Assembly: GCF_028694605.1 (NCBI RefSeq)
Contig: NZ_JAQVKP010000001.1
Coordinates: forward strand, 186,001-250,000
From: Sulfurimonas sp.
GTDB lineage: Bacteria > Campylobacterota > Campylobacteria > Campylobacterales > Sulfurimonadaceae
DNA length: 64,000 nucleotides
Reading direction: 5' to 3'
Every line of letters begins with the position of its first letter. Position 1 is the stretch's first letter. Positions 17,877-48,568 of this stretch are shown piece after piece. Below the pieces are notes generated by a model that had not been told where the DNA came from, did no database searches, and saw only the letters and a program-made list of their open reading frames with translations. The position numbers and the translations under genes were made by a program.

Positions 17877-18997
17877 TGGCTGAGTTTTTTGATGATTTCA
17901 AGTCCATTGTTTTAAACAAAACGCCGCTTTTGGATGTTCGTGCGCCTGTGGAGTTTCAAAGCGGAGCATTTATCAATGCTCTCAATCTTCCCATCATGGA
18001 CGATGAAGAGCGTCGTTTAGTTGGGATTTGCTATAAAAATGAGGGTAATGCAAAAGCGATAGAGTTAGGACATAAGCTTGTAAGCGGGGATGTAAAAGAG
18101 GAGCGGGTGAAGGCGTGGTGTGATTTTATAGATGCAAACCCATCTGCACTTCTCTACTGTTTTCGTGGCGGACAGCGCTCTAAAATAGCACAACAGTGGA
18201 TAAAAGAGAGCGGCAGAGAGATAAGCCGCTTAAAGGGCGGATATAAGGCATTTAGAAGCTATCTTTTAGGGGAACTTGAAGAGTTTGGAAGCCATTTTAA
18301 CCCTATCATTTTGGGTGGAAGAACAGGTTCAGGCAAAACTATAGAATTAAAAAAACTCTCCAATGCCATCGACCTTGAAGCTCTTGCAAACCATAGAGGC
18401 TCTTCATTTGGACAAAAAGTGACCCCGCAAACATCACAGATAAATTTTGATAACAATCTAGCCTACGAGCTAATCACAAAGCGAGAAGAGGGACATAAAA
18501 AGCTTGTTTTTGAGGACGAGGGCAAACATGTAGGTTCTGTTTTTATGCCACAGAGCCTTGTGGCATCCATGGCGGACGCACCGCTTGTTATCTTAGAGAG
18601 ACCTATGCAAGAGCGCATTGCCATAACGCTTGAAGAGTATGTCGTAGAGGCGCAAAAAGCCTACCGTGATGCAGGATTTGAAGATGGTTGGGAGCAAAAT
18701 ATCCAAAACTCCATAAAGCGTATCCAAAGACGACTTGGCAACCAGCGTTATGAATATGTCAATAGACTTTTTGAAGAGGCATTTAAGAAGCAAAAAGAGG
18801 ACGGCTCATTAAAGGAGCATGAGAAGTGGATAGAGTATCTGCTAAGAGAGTATTATGACCCGATGTACGACTACCAGATACAAAAACGCTCAGAGAGGGT
18901 TGCGTTTCGCGGGAACGAGCAAGAAGTTCAGGAGTACATCTTGTCTTTTTCTAACAATGCGATAAACTCATCTTCACACATCGGTTTTGCAAAATAG
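17876..18997 (+). CDS. selU: tRNA 2-selenouridine synthase
   Basis: A 373-residue SelU/MnmH protein that replaces sulfur by selenium in the wobble uridine of certain tRNAs using selenophosphate from SelD. The N-terminal rhodanese domain has active Cys95 in [11 protein letters not shown]-loop lies at 147-155 (GGRTGSGKT), and EDEGKHVG follows. The GTG start overlaps the selD stop by one base, so the two steps are translationally coupled. The 3' end runs 70 bp into the convergent GGDEF/EAL gene. Confidence 0.95.
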
Positions 18998-20859
18998 TAG
19001 CCTTGGATAGCGTCACACCCGTTGTCTCGTAAAAACTCATACTGCTCTTTGGTTTCAACGCCCTCTGCAACAGTTTTTAAATGCAAACTCTTGCCCATAG
19101 ATAAAATCGTATTGACAAGCGATTTACCGTTCTCATTATCGACGATGTCATCAACAAAACTTTTATCTATCTTCAATGTGTCTATAGGAAATTTTTTAAG
19201 ATATGAGAGAGATGAGTACCCCGTGCCAAAATCATCTACATAAACAGAGACACCTAGTTTTTTTATCTCTCTTAAAGCGCTCAGTGTGTTTTCTACATAT
19301 TTGAGTATGACACCCTCCGTTATTTCAATTCCGAGCTGAGTAGGGTCTATGCGGTTGTATTCTATGTTCTCTTTCAAATCTTGATACAAATTGCTATTTT
19401 GAAACTGTCTTGTAGAGACGTTTATGGATATGCTCAAATCTTTAAAACCAAGAGAGCTAAATCGCTTTATAGCCTGCGTACTGCTTTGAATAACAAATTT
19501 GCCGAGATTGAGGATAAAGCCGGTGTTTTCCGCAAGCGGGATAAAGAGGCTTGGCGGTATGAAGCCTTTTTGTTTATGCTGCCATCTCAAAAGAGCTTCT
19601 GCGCCGATTATTTTTCCATTTAGAGCATCTACTTTTGGTTGGTAGTAGAGTTGAAACTCATTCTCTGCAAATGCTCTTTGCATATCATTGACAATATCGA
19701 CTTCGGTATGTACTTTTGTGTTGAGTTCTTGAGAGAAAAAGCTGAAATTATCTCTTCCGTCTCCCTTGGCCTTATACATAGCAATATCAGCATATTTCAT
19801 AAGATCTTTTACATTTTGTGCATCGTCAGGATAGATAGAAATACCTATGCTTGCCGAGAGTCTTAGCAAGTATCCTTTTATCAACAAATCTTTTCTAAAA
19901 TTATTGAGCAGGTTGTTGATAGTAGGTACAAGTTCGTTTTGGTCATTGAAGTCCGATGCCACCATGATAAATTCATCACCGCCTATTCTTGCTATAAGAG
20001 TATCTTTCGAAACACTCTCTTTGAGCAAGGCGGCAACTCTTTTTAAAAGAGCATCGCCGATATCATGCCCTAGTGTATCGTTTATATTTTTAAAATGATC
20101 CAAATCCAAAAATATAACTGCAAATTTTTTGGCATTTTTTTCTGCATCGATGAGTATATTTTGAATCTTTTCGTTGAGGTTCAATCTGTTTGGCAAATCT
20201 GTAAGCATGTCATGCATAGAGAGATGAGCCAACTCTCTGTTAAGTTCATTGACCCGGTTTTGTGATTCATTGATGTTGATAGTATGTTCTATTTGAAGCC
20301 TTACGATATAACCCAAAACAAAAAGCTCTATGATTACGAAAATAGCATGAAGTATGACGATGTCAAATCCGCAGCCATAGTTAAAAACCATGACAGGCAT
20401 ATCAAAAAGCGAAACCTCGTAAAGCTGGAGATAGTTAAAAACAATGTGGTGTATAATCGTTGTTGCTGCCGCAAATACAAGAGGCATCACGTCTTTGTAG
20501 AGTGTCAAAATCGCCATGGCGATAAAGACATGAAAGTGCATTTCAATTCTGCCGAGATACTGCTGTATGAAGATAACAGAAAAGAGCATCATGGCAACTG
20601 CTATAAAGTATCTGAAATATCTCTCTCCCTTGAGATGTTTGTAGAGCAGCACCAGAGGTAAAACAATCAAAGCACCGCTGAAAAATCCGTAGTAATATGT
20701 AGAGTATTTTATGGATGTGACAAATGTTGCAATCGCCCATTGCAATACAAGCAATCGCAACATAACCCTGTCTGATTCGATATGGAAGAGCTGAAAATTC
20801 ATCTTTGCGTAGCTAGGAATTTCTGGGAATGAAAATATGTAATTAACTATTTTTTTCAC
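18928..20859 (-). CDS. Membrane GGDEF-EAL cyclic-di-GMP signalling protein
   Basis: 643 residues: roughly 200 N-terminal residues with about six hydrophobic helices, a GGDEF domain with intact [11 protein letters not shown] and [11 protein letters not shown], then an EAL domain with [20 protein letters not shown] and DALKIDKSF-like TLKIDKSFV. Both catalytic signatures look intact, so it could make or degrade cyclic di-GMP. It has 70 bp of convergent overlap with selU. The promoter region upstream is interrupted by a MITE-like element at 20879-21146, which may have altered its expression. Confidence 0.93.
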
Positions 20860-24019: not shown

Positions 24020-24048
24020 GTTTCTTATGATGCAAAAGTTAATGAATT

Positions 24049-24095
24049 TGGTTGCGGAAGCCGGATTTGAACCTGCGACCTTCGGGTTATGAGCC
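24049..24095 (-). other. Left attachment site with displaced 3' fragment of tRNA-fMet
   Basis: A 47-nt fragment matches the 3' part of the initiator tRNA-Met gene from the CCA end back to the anticodon loop, where homology stops after GGGTTATGAGCC (24084-24095). The intact tRNA is at 48492-48568. This is what integration of a tyrosine-recombinase element into a tRNA 3' half leaves behind. The fragment differs from the restored tRNA at five T-arm positions and one in the next loop, so the element brought a diverged 3' half. Confidence 0.9.
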
Positions 24096-25330: not shown

Positions 25331-25359
25331 TTGACTTTGTGTATCTTTTTTGATACAAT
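25331..25359 (+). promoter_or_regulatory. Toxin-antitoxin promoter with embedded operator
   Basis: TTGACT (25331-25336) and TACAAT (25354-25359) are separated by 17 bp, a near-consensus sigma-70 promoter. The spacer holds the inverted repeat GTATC-N6-GATAC (25341-25356), well placed for autorepression by the HigA-like antitoxin. Confidence 0.75.
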
Positions 25360-25378
25360 CACAGACATAAGGACTGGA

Positions 25379-25744
25379 ATGAACAAGATAATAGCCGTTA
25401 GATTTTATAAGACAGAATCAGGCAATGAGCCAGTTAAGGAGTGGCTCCTTTCTTTAGATAAAGAAGAGAGAAAAATCATAGGCACAGATATTCAAACTGT
25501 AGAGTTTGGATTTCCTATTGGTATGCCTTTGGTTAAAAAAATCGATACAAAGCATAAACTTTGGGAAGTTAGAAGCAGTCTTAACTCAGATAAAATTGCA
25601 AGAGTCATTTTTACGATTTACAAAGATTGTATGATTTTGTTGCATGGTTTTATAAAAAAAGAGCAAAAACTGCCTGAAAAAGATAAAAACATAGCAATAA
25701 ATAGAAGAAGAAAAATTGACACAGGGGAATGTGATGAAGAATAA
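25379..25744 (+). CDS. higB: HigB/Gp49-family toxin
   Basis: 121 residues from the ATG at 25379 (MNKIIAVRFY), 20 nt after its promoter. RelE/HigB superfamily features: RFYKTESGNEPVKEWLLSL, then KLWEVRSSL and RVIFTIYKDCMILLHGFIKKEQKLP. Such toxins cleave mRNA on the ribosome. The toxin precedes the antitoxin, as in HigBA loci, and overlaps it by 11 nt. On a mobile element the pair would favour maintenance by killing or stalling cells that lose it. Confidence 0.9.
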   Translation: MNKIIAVRFYKTESGNEPVKEWLLSLDKEERKIIGTDIQTVEFGFPIGMPLVKKIDTKHKLWEVRSSLNSDKIARVIFTIYKDCMILLHGFIKKEQKLPEKDKNIAINRRRKIDTGECDEE

Positions 25745-26015
25745 ACATATTGGAAGTGATTTTGGCGACTTTTTAAAAGAAGAAGGCATCTATGAAGAAG
25801 CTAATGATATAGCAATTAAAAGAGTGATTGCCTATCAGCTTGAACAAGAGATGAAAGCTCAAAATATCACTAAAACAAAAATGGCACAAATGATGCACAC
25901 AAGCAGAGCTGTAGTAAATAGATTGCTAAGTCCTGATAACAGTTCATTGACTCTAAATACATTGGAAGCTGCAACAAACGCTTTAGGAAAAAAATTAAAT
26001 ATATCAATAGCTTAG
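25734..26015 (+). CDS. higA: HigA-type XRE-family antitoxin
   Basis: 93 residues from the ATG at 25734, preceded by AGGGGAATGTG as ribosome-binding site and overlapping the toxin end. The C-terminal half is a helix-turn-helix (KTKMAQMMHTSRAVVNRLLSP). It should bind and neutralise the toxin and repress the operon through the GTATC/GATAC repeat in the promoter. Confidence 0.9.
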   Translation: MKNKHIGSDFGDFLKEEGIYEEANDIAIKRVIAYQLEQEMKAQNITKTKMAQMMHTSRAVVNRLLSPDNSSLTLNTLEAATNALGKKLNISIA

Positions 26016-26625: not shown

Positions 26626-26631
26626 TATAAT
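26626..26631 (+). promoter_or_regulatory. Probable -10 box for the structured RNA
   Basis: TATAAT at 26626-26631 would start transcription near 26638, just before the first strand of the long-range stem at 26645. No convincing -35 box is visible. Confidence 0.5.
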
Positions 26632-26637
26632 TTTAAC

Positions 26638-27470
26638 ATACAAATTACTGAACGGGGTACTAAGTTGTAGGCTCTCCCCAAGGGCCAAGGAGACTCCCAG
26701 TCTCCCGTTGAGTAATTTAAAAGATACAACTTAGTACCTTGTGTCTCGCTCACCAATAGAATTAATCAAAACACAAAAAAGATAGACAGTACAACTATCA
26801 AAGCTTTAAAACACTTATGACACAAAAAGGAGTTTTGAAGTAGTAAATATGAAAGACTCTATCAATCTGGAACTAAGTTTGGCGACCAGTGAAGATTGAT
26901 AAAGCTTGGCACATAAAGGTTATGTGGTATTCGCAATTATACCACAACTTTATTAAATCCATTCATATTTTTTAAAATTGTCAAAATAAATAGTAGTGGT
27001 AGAGGTTAGGACTGCGGGGTTGCAAATCCCTTAAAAAATGACACTAACTGGAGCTGGCGTAGTTGTATGTAAACCCATAAATGGAACTTGTGTTGCATAC
27101 TTAAAACCAGCGGTATAAAACTAAAGTCACTTGAATGCAAATCAAGTAAAAAAAGCAGAATAGACCAAATGTACAGAGTGTGAGGCGGTAAGCGGTTCAA
27201 TTCACTCTGGAGATACCCGTAGTTGAGCTAAGACTCAAGTAGTGACTCCCTTTATGTCGGCAATAGTGGCTATGATACGCTGCTTAAGCTGTAAGATATA
27301 AAGGTTATGGATAAGGGCTACCGTCCATATAATAAGCCTCGGAGAATGAGTACAACATTAACCGATATGTCTTTTTTAAGGCAGAAACTACCCCTTGTAA
27401 AAGAATAATTGGCGTTGACAAAAGTTATTTTTTTATAAGGGGTAGTTATGTCTATTTCGGAACTACCCGC
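26638..27470 (+). ncRNA. Candidate large structured non-coding RNA
   Basis: About 830 nt without a credible protein gene, less AT-rich than its surroundings and crowded with complementary segments. It opens with two interleaved long stems (26645-26738), followed by stems at 26781-26799, 26860-26901 (9 bp), 26924-26945 (7 bp), 27005-27048, 27053-27111, 27129-27147 (6 bp), 27174-27209 (7 bp), 27222-27238, 27306-27329 and a closing 11-bp stem 27386-27447. Size, density of structure and location in a mobile element recall the large ornate RNAs such as GOLLD and ROOL, but I cannot match it to a family. No reverse transcriptase is nearby, which argues against a group II intron or retron. The strand is inferred from the TATAAT at 26626. 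Confidence 0.55.
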
Positions 27471-27551: not shown

Positions 27552-28556
27552 CTATCTATATTTCTTATCTATTTTTTCAAAATTCATAAGAAAATATGAA
27601 TCAAACATCTCATCACTCCAACCATCATGTGCATATTGGTAATCAATACTATTATTTTTATACTCGTATGGTATATTTATTTTTTGTAGCTCAAGTTGTA
27701 AATTATCATATTCATATTTTATATCTTTTAATCTTAGACTAAAAAACCAATAGTCTAATTTGTCAATATTTATGTCTTTTAAAGCAACAAAAGCTATAAG
27801 ATATGAATAATACATGCTTAAAATGTTATTTTCGTTTCTTTTGCAAAGCAGATTTCTATAAAACATATCTCTTTTTTTGCAGTTTTCACTATTTTTACAT
27901 TTATTAAATATGTTAAAAACAGAAAATTCTACGCCACTGTTAAATATAAATGTACATTTAAACGGTAGTTGTGTCCAAATTGCAAATTTAGCTACACTAA
28001 AGCTTTCGATAAATTCAGTTGTTTTTTTTTCAATTTTTTCATACTTAAAATTTTCTATGTCTTGCAAAAAATTAAAAACTTTTACAAATTCGTCTTTAAA
28101 GAATATTGGTTCTCTCCATTTAACAGGATTATTACATATATTATGTAAGACCTCAAATATTATTTTTTGAGAGTTTATATCATCAATACTTAATGCATCT
28201 AGGATAATTATTTTAAGTAATATTTGAATTTGATTACATTTTTCTATCTCATATTTAATATCGTTATGAATTTTATATCTTGTGTTGAGCTCTTCTGTTT
28301 TTTGTACCGCCTCATCAAGACTTTGAAGACGGGAAGTTTTAACAACTATATCAATATGATTGTTTTTAATATACTCTAATTTTAGATTTAAAAATGAATG
28401 TAGAAGATTGTCCATATTTGTTAGATTGTTTTTATACCAGCTCTCTATTTGATTAATATCGATAAAAATGGGAAATATATTATCTTTTAATTGATAATAA
28501 TTATTTTGAACCCCTATTTGTTGATTGCCGCTGCCATATTGATTAAAATTACTCAT
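27552..28556 (-). CDS. Unknown protein with N-terminal GSGNQQIG motif
   Basis: 334 residues, AT-rich coding sequence, no recognised domain. The N-terminus (FNQYGSGNQQIGVQNNYY) carries a motif also present in the neighbouring repressor-like protein; the underlying 20 bp are identical in both genes (28517-28536 and 28755-28774). The rest looks alpha-helical with a few cysteines (KCKNSENCKKRD) and no membrane segment. It starts 7 nt after the repressor stop, so the two form an operon on the minus strand, convergent with the structured RNA. The short Gln/Asn/Gly motif resembles self-assembling signalling motifs of the RHIM/amyloid kind; this is an inference. Confidence 0.7.
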   Translation of the reverse strand: MSNFNQYGSGNQQIGVQNNYYQLKDNIFPIFIDINQIESWYKNNLTNMDNLLHSFLNLKLEYIKNNHIDIVVKTSRLQSLDEAVQKTEELNTRYKIHNDIKYEIEKCNQIQILLKIIILDALSIDDINSQKIIFEVLHNICNNPVKWREPIFFKDEFVKVFNFLQDIENFKYEKIEKKTTEFIESFSVAKFAIWTQLPFKCTFIFNSGVEFSVFNIFNKCKNSENCKKRDMFYRNLLCKRNENNILSMYYSYLIAFVALKDINIDKLDYWFFSLRLKDIKYEYDNLQLELQKINIPYEYKNNSIDYQYAHDGWSDEMFDSYFLMNFEKIDKKYR

Positions 28557-28563
28557 GCATATT

Positions 28564-28986
28564 TTATAAAGTAGGCAGTGTAGATATTAACTTAGTAAGC
28601 TCTTGTTTAAGCTCTTGTTTTTTATTTAATGCGTTTGCGACACTATTTAAAGCCTCTACGAGTTTTAAAATATCCTCATCTATTTTTGCAGGGTTTGCAG
28701 GGGTAGTGCCAAAATTATTAATATTGCTACTATCACGATTATTTTGCGTGCCAATTTGTTGATTGCCGCTGCCACGTTGAGTAAAAGAAGTATTTACACC
28801 CCCAAATATCTCACTATATATACCTAATTCTCGACACTTTGATGCGATTGCCTTGATGTAATTATTTTTTTTCCACTGGCTAATGGCTGGTTGTGATGTG
28901 TTGATTTCTTTTGCGAGCTCACTAATAGTAAATACATTATAGTAACTCATTAGTTTTTCAATTAACAATTCAGCTTCATTTTTCAA
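28564..28986 (-). CDS. CI-type helix-turn-helix regulator with GSGNQQIG linker
   Basis: 140 residues starting at a TTG with AAAGGA upstream. The N-terminal ~60 residues match the bacteriophage CI repressor HTH type (LMSYYNVFTISELAKEI, NTSQPAISQWKKNNYI). A flexible Gln/Asn/Ser-rich linker follows with RGSGNQQIGTQNN, then a C-terminal coiled-coil-like helix (DILKLVEALNSVANALNKK). There is no LexA-type peptidase domain. It is divergent from the repeat copy at 29008-29129, whose dyads are candidate operators, and operonic with the 334-residue protein. Confidence 0.75.
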   Translation of the reverse strand: MKNEAELLIEKLMSYYNVFTISELAKEINTSQPAISQWKKNNYIKAIASKCRELGIYSEIFGGVNTSFTQRGSGNQQIGTQNNRDSSNINNFGTTPANPAKIDEDILKLVEALNSVANALNKKQELKQELTKLISTLPTL

Positions 28987-31762: not shown

Positions 31763-32032
31763 ATGAAAATTTACAAAGCGACAAAAAGTCATTTACATTT
31801 TAAAAAAGGTGATTATGTGGTACTTATTAGTAGTGAGGTTGTACCTACCCATACTAATTTTACTAATAATTCAAAAAAATCAATCTCTGTAAAAGTTGAT
31901 ATTTTCAACAAAAACCGTAAAAAATATGATGGTTTCAAACACGATATAAATCCAACTAAACTTAAAGAGATGATGGATTGTTTAGAGTTAAGTAGTTTAC
32001 AAAAAGAGGATTTGTATGTTGACGGTTCGTAA
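31763..32032 (+). CDS. Small protein of unknown function before the relaxase
   Basis: 89 residues, basic N-terminal half (KIYKATKSHLHFKKGDYVVLIS) predicted beta-rich and an acidic helical end. GGGAGAG lies 5 nt before the ATG, a strong ribosome-binding site. Its end overlaps the relaxase start by 17 nt, so relaxase translation is probably coupled to it. It is not recognised; it may be a relaxosome accessory protein. Confidence 0.6.
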   Translation: MKIYKATKSHLHFKKGDYVVLISSEVVPTHTNFTNNSKKSISVKVDIFNKNRKKYDGFKHDINPTKLKEMMDCLELSSLQKEDLYVDGS

Positions 32033-33560
32033 GTTATCAATGAAGCAAGCGGCGACATACTATTCCAAGGATAACTACTATACCCAACAAATTGGGGAGT
32101 ATTACGGTAAGCTTAAGGATGGTTTAAGTTTAAATGACCTAACTCATGAGAGTTTTATTCAAATCTTACAAGGCATCCACCCGACCACGGGTGAGAGCCT
32201 AATCGCTTCAAAAAAAGGCAAAGAGGCGGCGGTGCCAGCCTATGATTTTACTTTTTCGCCCTCAAAAAGTGTAAGTATCGCCTACGAGGCGGCACTTGCT
32301 AAAGGCGATACCACCCTTGCTAATGCAATGGAGATGGCACATAACAACGCCGTAAATACGGCTCTGTCTCACATCGAGTCAGAGCATATAAAAACAAGGG
32401 TTCAGACAAAAGGTAAGCGGCAAAGTATCAATACACGTAATATGATCGCGGCAAAATTTCAGCATGATATAAATCGTTCGCTTGAGCCACAGCTTCATAC
32501 TCACTCTGTAATTTTCAATTTTACAAAATCGGCGGACGGCAAATATCGAAGTCTTGACGGTTCCCATCTGCTCCAAAAAGGGCAAGCCGCCTTATCACAA
32601 AGTGTCGGGCAGTTCTACCGCGAAGCCCTTAAAAATGAGTTGCAAAAGGCGGGTTTTGAAATTAGAGATGTCGATAAATCTAAAAGTTTTTTCGAGCTTA
32701 AAAATGTCGACGATAACCTTATCCAAGCTTTTTCAAGCCGCACTATTGCGATTAAAGCCAAAGTTGAAGAGCTAAAAAAAGAGCATCCTCATTTGAGTAA
32801 ATCACAGCTAAGTTTGCGCGCATTTTTCAACACACGCCAGACAAAAAAAGAGGTAAATCGAGATGAAGTTCGTCATAAAAATGTTGAGCTTATGTCAAAA
32901 CATGTAAATCTTGACAAGCTTTTATCCTCTTTACAACCCAAAAAATCAGCTCGAAAAGAGCAAATCCAAGAGCCTAAAATCGAACAAGCCGAGCTTAAAA
33001 AAATCATTAATGAGGCAAAAAGCGAGATACAAAACAAAAAGCACCGCACACCTCTTAATGTAACCATTAAGGCGGCGGCAAAAATAGATACTCCAATATC
33101 TATTACAACCCTTTTTAATCAAGTCAAAAATGAGGAGGTACGACAACAAAAGCAATTAAATACGATGCACGAGGTGCTTTTAAATAGCCTCAAATCCACA
33201 AAATTAGACACTCAAAAACTATTTGAGAGTCTCAAAACACCAAATATAAAAATTCAAATCGAGGAGAAATACGAAAATGCCCGAGGAACAAATAACCGAG
33301 ATAGATTTATTACTAGTTATCGTGACAGCACAGCAGAGCTTGAGCGAGCAAAACAAGCTAATTTTAGAGATGTTGCAGACCTTACTACCGTCGCCGAGCG
33401 AGGAGAGCCAAGAGCCGAGTTTGAAAGATCTCATGATGTTGATGCTAGAGCAGCAAGAGGTGATAATTCAAATGCTGTCACAATCAGCGACATCAGAAGA
33501 GCCGAGGAGCTTCACAGAGCAAGGTACGGACAAAACCAAAACAAAGGAGTCGAAAGATGA
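32016..33560 (+). CDS. MobF-family relaxase without helicase domain
   Basis: 514 residues. The N-terminal ~300 match the TrwC/TraI relaxase domain: tyrosine pairs at 15-16 and 21-22, the DFTFSPSKSVSIAY segment, and the metal-binding histidines 150, 161 and 163 in FQHDINRSLEPQLHTHSV. It should nick oriT and carry the strand covalently. Known TrwC/TraI proteins run to ~970-1750 residues with a RecD-like helicase; here only a charged low-complexity C-terminus follows, so strand unwinding must come from another protein. The last 285 nt also encode a 95-residue ORF in another frame. Confidence 0.92.
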   Translation: MLTVRKLSMKQAATYYSKDNYYTQQIGEYYGKLKDGLSLNDLTHESFIQILQGIHPTTGESLIASKKGKEAAVPAYDFTFSPSKSVSIAYEAALAKGDTTLANAMEMAHNNAVNTALSHIESEHIKTRVQTKGKRQSINTRNMIAAKFQHDINRSLEPQLHTHSVIFNFTKSADGKYRSLDGSHLLQKGQAALSQSVGQFYREALKNELQKAGFEIRDVDKSKSFFELKNVDDNLIQAFSSRTIAIKAKVEELKKEHPHLSKSQLSLRAFFNTRQTKKEVNRDEVRHKNVELMSKHVNLDKLLSSLQPKKSARKEQIQEPKIEQAELKKIINEAKSEIQNKKHRTPLNVTIKAAAKIDTPISITTLFNQVKNEEVRQQKQLNTMHEVLLNSLKSTKLDTQKLFESLKTPNIKIQIEEKYENARGTNNRDRFITSYRDSTAELERAKQANFRDVADLTTVAERGEPRAEFERSHDVDARAARGDNSNAVTISDIRRAEELHRARYGQNQNKGVER

Positions 33561-48434: not shown

Positions 48435-48491
48435 GTTGTTTTAAAAAGAAAACTTAAAGTGAGTGATTTTTATAAGAAAAGTTGATGATTT

Positions 48492-48568
<77 letters not shown>

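Follow-up and report, generated by a model that had tools for sequence, protein, structure and literature searches.

Introduction

Large ornate RNAs are few to our knowledge, and nearly all of them are of unknown function. GOLLD assembles into a 14-mer RNA cage and ROOL into an octameric RNA cage, and the int-alpA RNA motif, a structured RNA beside the integrase gene in mobile elements, is much smaller than the RNA described here. Both GOLLD and ROOL are encoded by phages or prophages, frequently lie near tRNA islands, have no known function and form RNA-only cages (PMC12286853). GOLLD of a Lactobacillus brevis prophage accumulates during lytic infection and is dispensable, and the Vibrio phage ICP1 produces an ~800-nt non-coding transcript that the authors liken to GOLLD and ROOL (PMC7567579).

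Here we compare with these systems a locus in a Sulfurimonas sp. contig. The window, that is, the whole stretch of DNA analysed, comprises 64,000 nucleotides, and the host genome is 2.15 Mb in size.

The RNA locus and the element that carries it

26638–27470, + strand: structured RNA; fold z of −6.1, covariation with the relative in genome G162 and a full-length homologue; start placed from the −10 box, 3′ end approximate, perhaps ~27545

The 833 nt of the + strand fold with an energy of −236.5 kcal/mol (z = −6.1, 20 shuffles), and the − strand of the region reaches −211.1 kcal/mol (z = −4.4, 20 shuffles). A first-pass annotation had described the region as a candidate for a large, ornate RNA within mobile-element cargo that could be assigned to no family, without a credible ORF, preceded closely by TATAAT, richer in G and C than its flanks and containing at least nine stems. 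These points agree with our results. The longest ORF is 64 amino acids, on the minus strand, and the type-A relatives introduced below have no ORF in common; a coding origin is rejected for want of a credible or shared ORF. TATAAT lies at 26626–26631, the GC content is 0.35–0.39 across most of the region compared with 0.23–0.30 for most nearby 500-base windows, and more than nine stems are found, several of which covary with the nearest full-length relative. The locus is several hundred nucleotides long, non-coding, of covarying structure and carried by a mobile element, as is typical of large ornate mobile-element RNAs, which are a kind and not a family; this reading is further supported by the promoter position and the lack of an Rfam match. 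The annotated 11-bp closing stem also exists (27386–27396/27437–27447), but it closes a local 62-nt 3′ hairpin and not the whole RNA. The start at 26638 is consistent with the position of the −10 box, whereas similarity to the full-length relative continues to ~27545 and leaves the 3′ boundary uncertain.

The RNA lies within a ~24.5-kb ICE with an integrase, a TrwC relaxase and tRNA-Met att repeats:

24034–24095: left att, which partially repeats the 3′ part of tRNA-Met and shares 62 bp with 48477–48538 at 90% identity
24224–25327, + strand: tyrosine integrase (PF00589, E 6.5e-27)
25331–26015, + strand: toxin–antitoxin pair, with a Gp49/RelE-like toxin at 25331–25744 (PF05973) and an HTH antitoxin, named from sequence and position, at 25716–26015
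32016–33560, + strand: TrwC relaxase (PF08751, E 7.5e-64)
48477–48538: right att, tRNA-Met 3′ part; the tRNA itself is at 48492–48568, minus strand

The left end reads integrase, toxin, antitoxin, a 104-aa protein, the RNA and two opposite-strand genes, and the RNA is ~2.5 kb from att. A 20-bp repeat, GGTTGGAAATAGGTTGGAAA, is located just within each ICE end. The proteins encoded at 27552–28556 (−) and 28564–28986 (−) share a GNQQIG-NN-like motif, the smaller one having an HTH; the pair (27552–28986) gives no Pfam match and only weak padloc matches. Similar protein pairs stand downstream of the RNA, on the opposite strand, in G162 (L013) and G180 (L014).

The 5′ pseudoknot head and the promoter

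The most telling feature, which the first-pass annotation did not name, is an H-type pseudoknot at 26642–26738. In the family this conserved head is ~100 nt long and runs from the P1 5′ strand through the P2 5′ strand and two hairpins to the P1 3′ strand and then the P2 3′ strand. In the window it directly follows the −10 box:

26626–26631, + strand: TATAAT, the −10 box of the RNA; a TA[TG]NAT box precedes P1 by 8–17 nt in 35 of 35 distinct loci
26642–26656, + strand: P1 5′ strand (AAATTACTGAACGGG), pairing with 26704–26718
26656–26669, + strand: P2 5′ strand (GGTACTAAGTTGTA), fully complementary to 26725–26738
26704–26718, + strand: P1 3′ strand (CCCGTTGAGTAATTT), partner of the P1 5′ strand
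26725–26738, + strand: P2 3′ strand (TACAACTTAGTACC), partner of the P2 5′ strand

Both P1 and P2 re-form in 36 distinct copies, which is the strongest single evidence for RNA structure. The P1 pairing ACGGG/CCCGT changes to ATGCA/TGCAT, AGCGGG/CCCGCT or ATGGGA/TCCCAT in relatives, and P2 occurs as about eight clearly different complementary sequences. The cross-pairing control is imperfect: unrelated strands score a mean of 22 versus 33 for a copy's own strands, and some related strands equal the own pairs. Covariance model R1 matches the window head at 77.3 bits, the window having belonged to its training set.

The distance from the end of the TA[TG]NAT box to P1 has its mode at 12 nt, and no such box occurs in the control stretch; a TTRACW motif that resembles a −35 box and is suitably spaced is present in 13 of the 35 loci. 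Transcription would thus start at about 26638, judging from the box. Upstream of the −10 box, alternative motifs occur at a similar position in many loci (L042, L023, L038), namely TTTATTAACA, CTTTATGGAC/GGTA and CTCAGGCA/GGTAC; these three may be −35 variants or sites for an integrase or regulator.

Distribution of the RNA

Among 200 family genomes, blastn finds a full-length relative in G162, the sole one of the window's own type, and partial relatives elsewhere. The 5′-end pattern is present in 23 of 135 Sulfurimonas genomes (reversed control, 0) and the head covariance model matches 24 of the 135. Across the order, this model matches 15 of 399 genomes, in 7 of 87 sampled genera and three families. 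A pattern scan of the whole collection extends the set to Sulfuricurvum, Sulfurospirillum and two contigs assigned by binning to Gracilibacteria and Desulfurellales; these two may reflect transfer or faulty binning. Eight of its 32 matches (Ferruginibacter, Flavobacteriaceae, Bacteroidetes, Eubacteriales, Bacilli and Sphingobacteriaceae) do not have the remainder of the head and are ascribed to chance. Sampling across the phylum yielded no further family in addition to those of the order. Named carriers are Sulfurimonas indica NW8N and Sulfurospirillum cavolei UCH003, the latter with a 3′-truncated copy. The window's own genome holds a second copy at C19:94719 (L044/L085), beside a tRNA-Leu(UAG) cluster, which has lost its 3′ part. 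Plasmid and phage records gave no blastn match to the window type or type A, and five patterns run on viral contigs gave twelve matches to short seeds, all of which lacked the head and could not be aligned to the RNA.

All 4227 families of Rfam 15, including GOLLD, ROOL, the introns and int-alpA, were compared with the window, and none reached its gathering threshold. Eight relatives and one type-A copy, the latter scanned at E ≤ 1, likewise matched no family. The sub-threshold matches to mir, CopA, SSRC41 and Plastid-psbJ are regarded as chance fits to hairpins. In the literature covered, which lies outside subscription journals and most preprints, no description of this RNA was found. The RNA represents a new family, absent from Rfam, in sulfur-oxidising Campylobacterota.

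A conserved head with apparently exchangeable bodies

The type-A RNA profile aligns to the window only across the head (26642–26753). The copy in G099 (L004) is a chimera, in which a type-A body follows a head 90% identical to that of the window over 82 nt, and types B (window, G162), C (L053, L076) and D (G180) have ~330 nt in common and then diverge. This chimera and the divergence of B, C and D show one head joined to several bodies; thus, the family combines a conserved ~100-nt head with exchangeable 3′ bodies.

For type A, RNAalifold on 16 complete relatives (570–640 nt) predicts 98 pairs, of which 27 are doubly changed. With P1 added, 97.1% of the cells pair, and pairing falls to 35–43% in slid controls. 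The double changes and the covariation score were reached by 0 of 500 shuffles, which ignore relatedness, so this result is support and not a P value.

For type B, the window and G162 are 71% identical and show 37 doubly changed pairs versus 24.8 ± 3.7 (maximum 30) in column-shuffled controls. Their common structure has an energy of −700 versus −608 ± 12 in the controls, and the − strand is weaker. The ratio of G-U to A-C cells is 267:35 on the + strand versus 228:77 on the − strand. The + strand is favoured as the RNA strand by this better fold, by the retention of G-U and by a U-G pair in P1 that is kept in 15 of 16 type-A relatives. The stems of the window body are as follows:

26803–26841, + strand: stem-loop common to the window and G162, invariant between them so that covariation gives no test
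26854–26906, + strand: stem-loop (CTATCAATCT/AGATTGATAAAG) kept in types B, C and D
26916–26951, + strand: 13-bp stem-loop; one double and two single compensations relative to G162, none broken
27169–27214, + strand: highly conserved hairpin, module TGAGGCGGTNAGCGGTTCAATT; one loop base differs in G162
27224–27237, + strand: stem UGAG/CUCA, which is AAGC/GCUU in G162, with four of four pairs doubly changed
27259–27290, + strand: 9-pair stem-loop; four pairs changed on one side yet kept, none broken
27306–27329, + strand: 9-pair stem-loop without change between the window and G162; GGATAAGGG..ACCGTCCAT also in G180
27339–27365, + strand: 8-pair stem-loop with three double compensations
27386–27447, + strand: 3′-terminal hairpin, in which the 11-bp stem extends to 23-nt arms with 91% complementarity; G162 has CCCTGTACAGAG/CTCTATACAGGG there instead

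Module TGAGGCGGTNAGCGGTTCAATT recurs in G078 with a different closing stem. The hairpin module TGAGGCGGTAAGCGGTTCAATT in G078 (L019, ~18700–19590, minus strand) also has another closing stem and no 5′ head, and this locus may be a further structured RNA with a module in common. With up to two mismatches, the TGAGGCGGTNAGCGGTTCAATTC module was found in its own genome only among 399 genomes of the order.

tRNA-linked elements in relatives

Most relatives stand immediately behind a tRNA gene, mainly tRNA-Leu(UAG). In ~20 genomes the next gene downstream of the final tRNA in a Pro-His-Arg-Arg-Leu(UAG) cluster is that of the RNA, encoded on the same strand, and other copies follow tRNA-Leu(GAG), tRNA-Leu(CAA), tRNA-Asn or an integrase gene (G180, L076). 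Further downstream, the 3′ part of tRNA-Leu occurs again at +9263 (56 bp, identical), +3693 (127 bp, 97%), +2971 (25 bp) and +5306 (57 bp, 96%), so that the elements span 3–10 kb and the RNA lies, in several cases, at the att-proximal end of a small integrative element. G069 has two att copies, a tandem insertion. In eight genomes without a detected head the same tRNA-Leu is followed by different sequence, which in one case is another small element. Repeats like GGTACGGTCTAGGGTACGGTT, possibly integrase arm sites, are observed near att, just after tRNA-Leu, in G162, G294 (L101) and G047 (L154). The cargo, named by eye from the sequence, includes HipA-like, AbiE-like, Fic, ParA-like and type I restriction genes. 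No gene common to all RNA neighbourhoods was seen, and the next gene downstream varies and frequently lies on the opposite strand (in the window, G162, G180, G191 and S. indica).

Proposed role and alternative explanations

With homology, fold, covariation, promoter position and mobile location established here, the locus almost certainly encodes a stand-alone structured RNA, because the fold, the covariation, the −10 box, the lack of a shared ORF, the + strand bias, the att-proximal setting with variable neighbours and presence or absence between genomes, and the joining of one head to different bodies all argue for it. The product would be the RNA itself, which would act in trans and not as a leader. 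Taken as a whole, our preferred explanation, a stand-alone RNA gene carried by tRNA-targeting elements, is probably correct. A folded RNA of ~600–850 nt would be made from its own promoter; its 5′ pseudoknot head is conserved and its body exchangeable, and its carriers are integrative elements that target tRNA genes, in which the RNA is usually the att-proximal gene. The head may fix or protect the 5′ end of the RNA, and the body may build a compact particle, made either of RNA alone, as in GOLLD and ROOL, or of RNA and a host protein. Such a particle might serve the element during mobilisation or phage attack, a mode of action that we propose tentatively as the likeliest one. Somewhat more speculative is the idea that one pseudoknot head has been recombined with bodies that act as specificity or assembly domains, the RNA being the active agent as an RNA particle, an anti-phage agent or an excision or transfer factor.

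Among the alternatives, a role as the RNA component of a defence or toxin–antitoxin system (type III antitoxin, retron or similar) survives best, although it is improbable. It would suit the pseudoknot head and a cargo that often contains toxin–antitoxin, HipA-like, AbiE-like, Fic or restriction genes; however, the neighbourhoods have no protein in common, tandem antitoxin repeats are absent, no adjacent reverse transcriptase was noticed, and the toxin is the only solid padloc match near the window RNA. The type III form is rejected, since each copy has one head instead of tandem pseudoknots and is followed by a variable gene, often on the opposite strand.

A DNA-level site (oriT, origin or recombination/arm region) with a folding single strand and incidental transcription is distinctly less likely. 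Folds of single-stranded DNA are usual at such sites, and att is near in most elements. Both strands should then matter, yet the + strand folds better and keeps its G-U cells and the P1 U-G pair. Moreover, the −10 box is fixed upstream of the RNA, the window RNA stands ~2.5 kb away from att, and the small RNA-bearing elements have no noticed conjugation gene. Slightly less likely again is a cis-acting leader or attenuator of the downstream gene, which the promoter and dense structure would allow, but that gene varies by element and is often on the opposite strand, as listed above, and the reading is rejected. Despite the size and dense fold, the remnant of a group I/II intron, or another ribozyme, is highly improbable and likewise rejected, as the intron covariance models gave no match (none at E ≤ 5 for the window or E ≤ 1 for a type-A copy) and the RNA is intergenic, after intact tRNAs, with no intron-encoded protein noticed.

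Comparison with known large RNAs

Its position next to att in small integrative elements ties the stand-alone RNA to element biology, and its modular build lets head and body be tested separately. The first-pass annotation had likened it to GOLLD and ROOL, a likeness that is retained in kind and not in membership as judged by covariance model. Like the new RNA, GOLLD is large (often >800 nt) and ornate, is carried by mobile elements, often near tRNAs, and has one conserved and one variable half (PMC12286853). However, the GOLLD covariance model is matched neither by the window nor by the eight relatives or the type-A copy. Its conserved part is the 3′ region, whereas that of the new RNA is the 5′ pseudoknot head, and its carriers are phages and prophages, whereas those of the new RNA are tRNA-targeting integrative elements, the search of phage records having given no match. 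ROOL resembles the new RNA in its length of ~650 nt, its several pseudoknots and its place in phages and prophages near tRNA islands, but the accessible part of the same source describes no conserved head with exchangeable bodies (PMC12286853), and the new RNA does not match the ROOL covariance model. The ICP1 transcript, compared by description only, is also large, ORF-less and from a mobile genetic element, but belongs to a Vibrio phage and is not near tRNAs. Thus, the new RNA resembles GOLLD and ROOL only in kind, that is, in size, mobile setting, tRNA proximity and modularity, and the new family adds dozens of natural variants to the large ornate RNAs.
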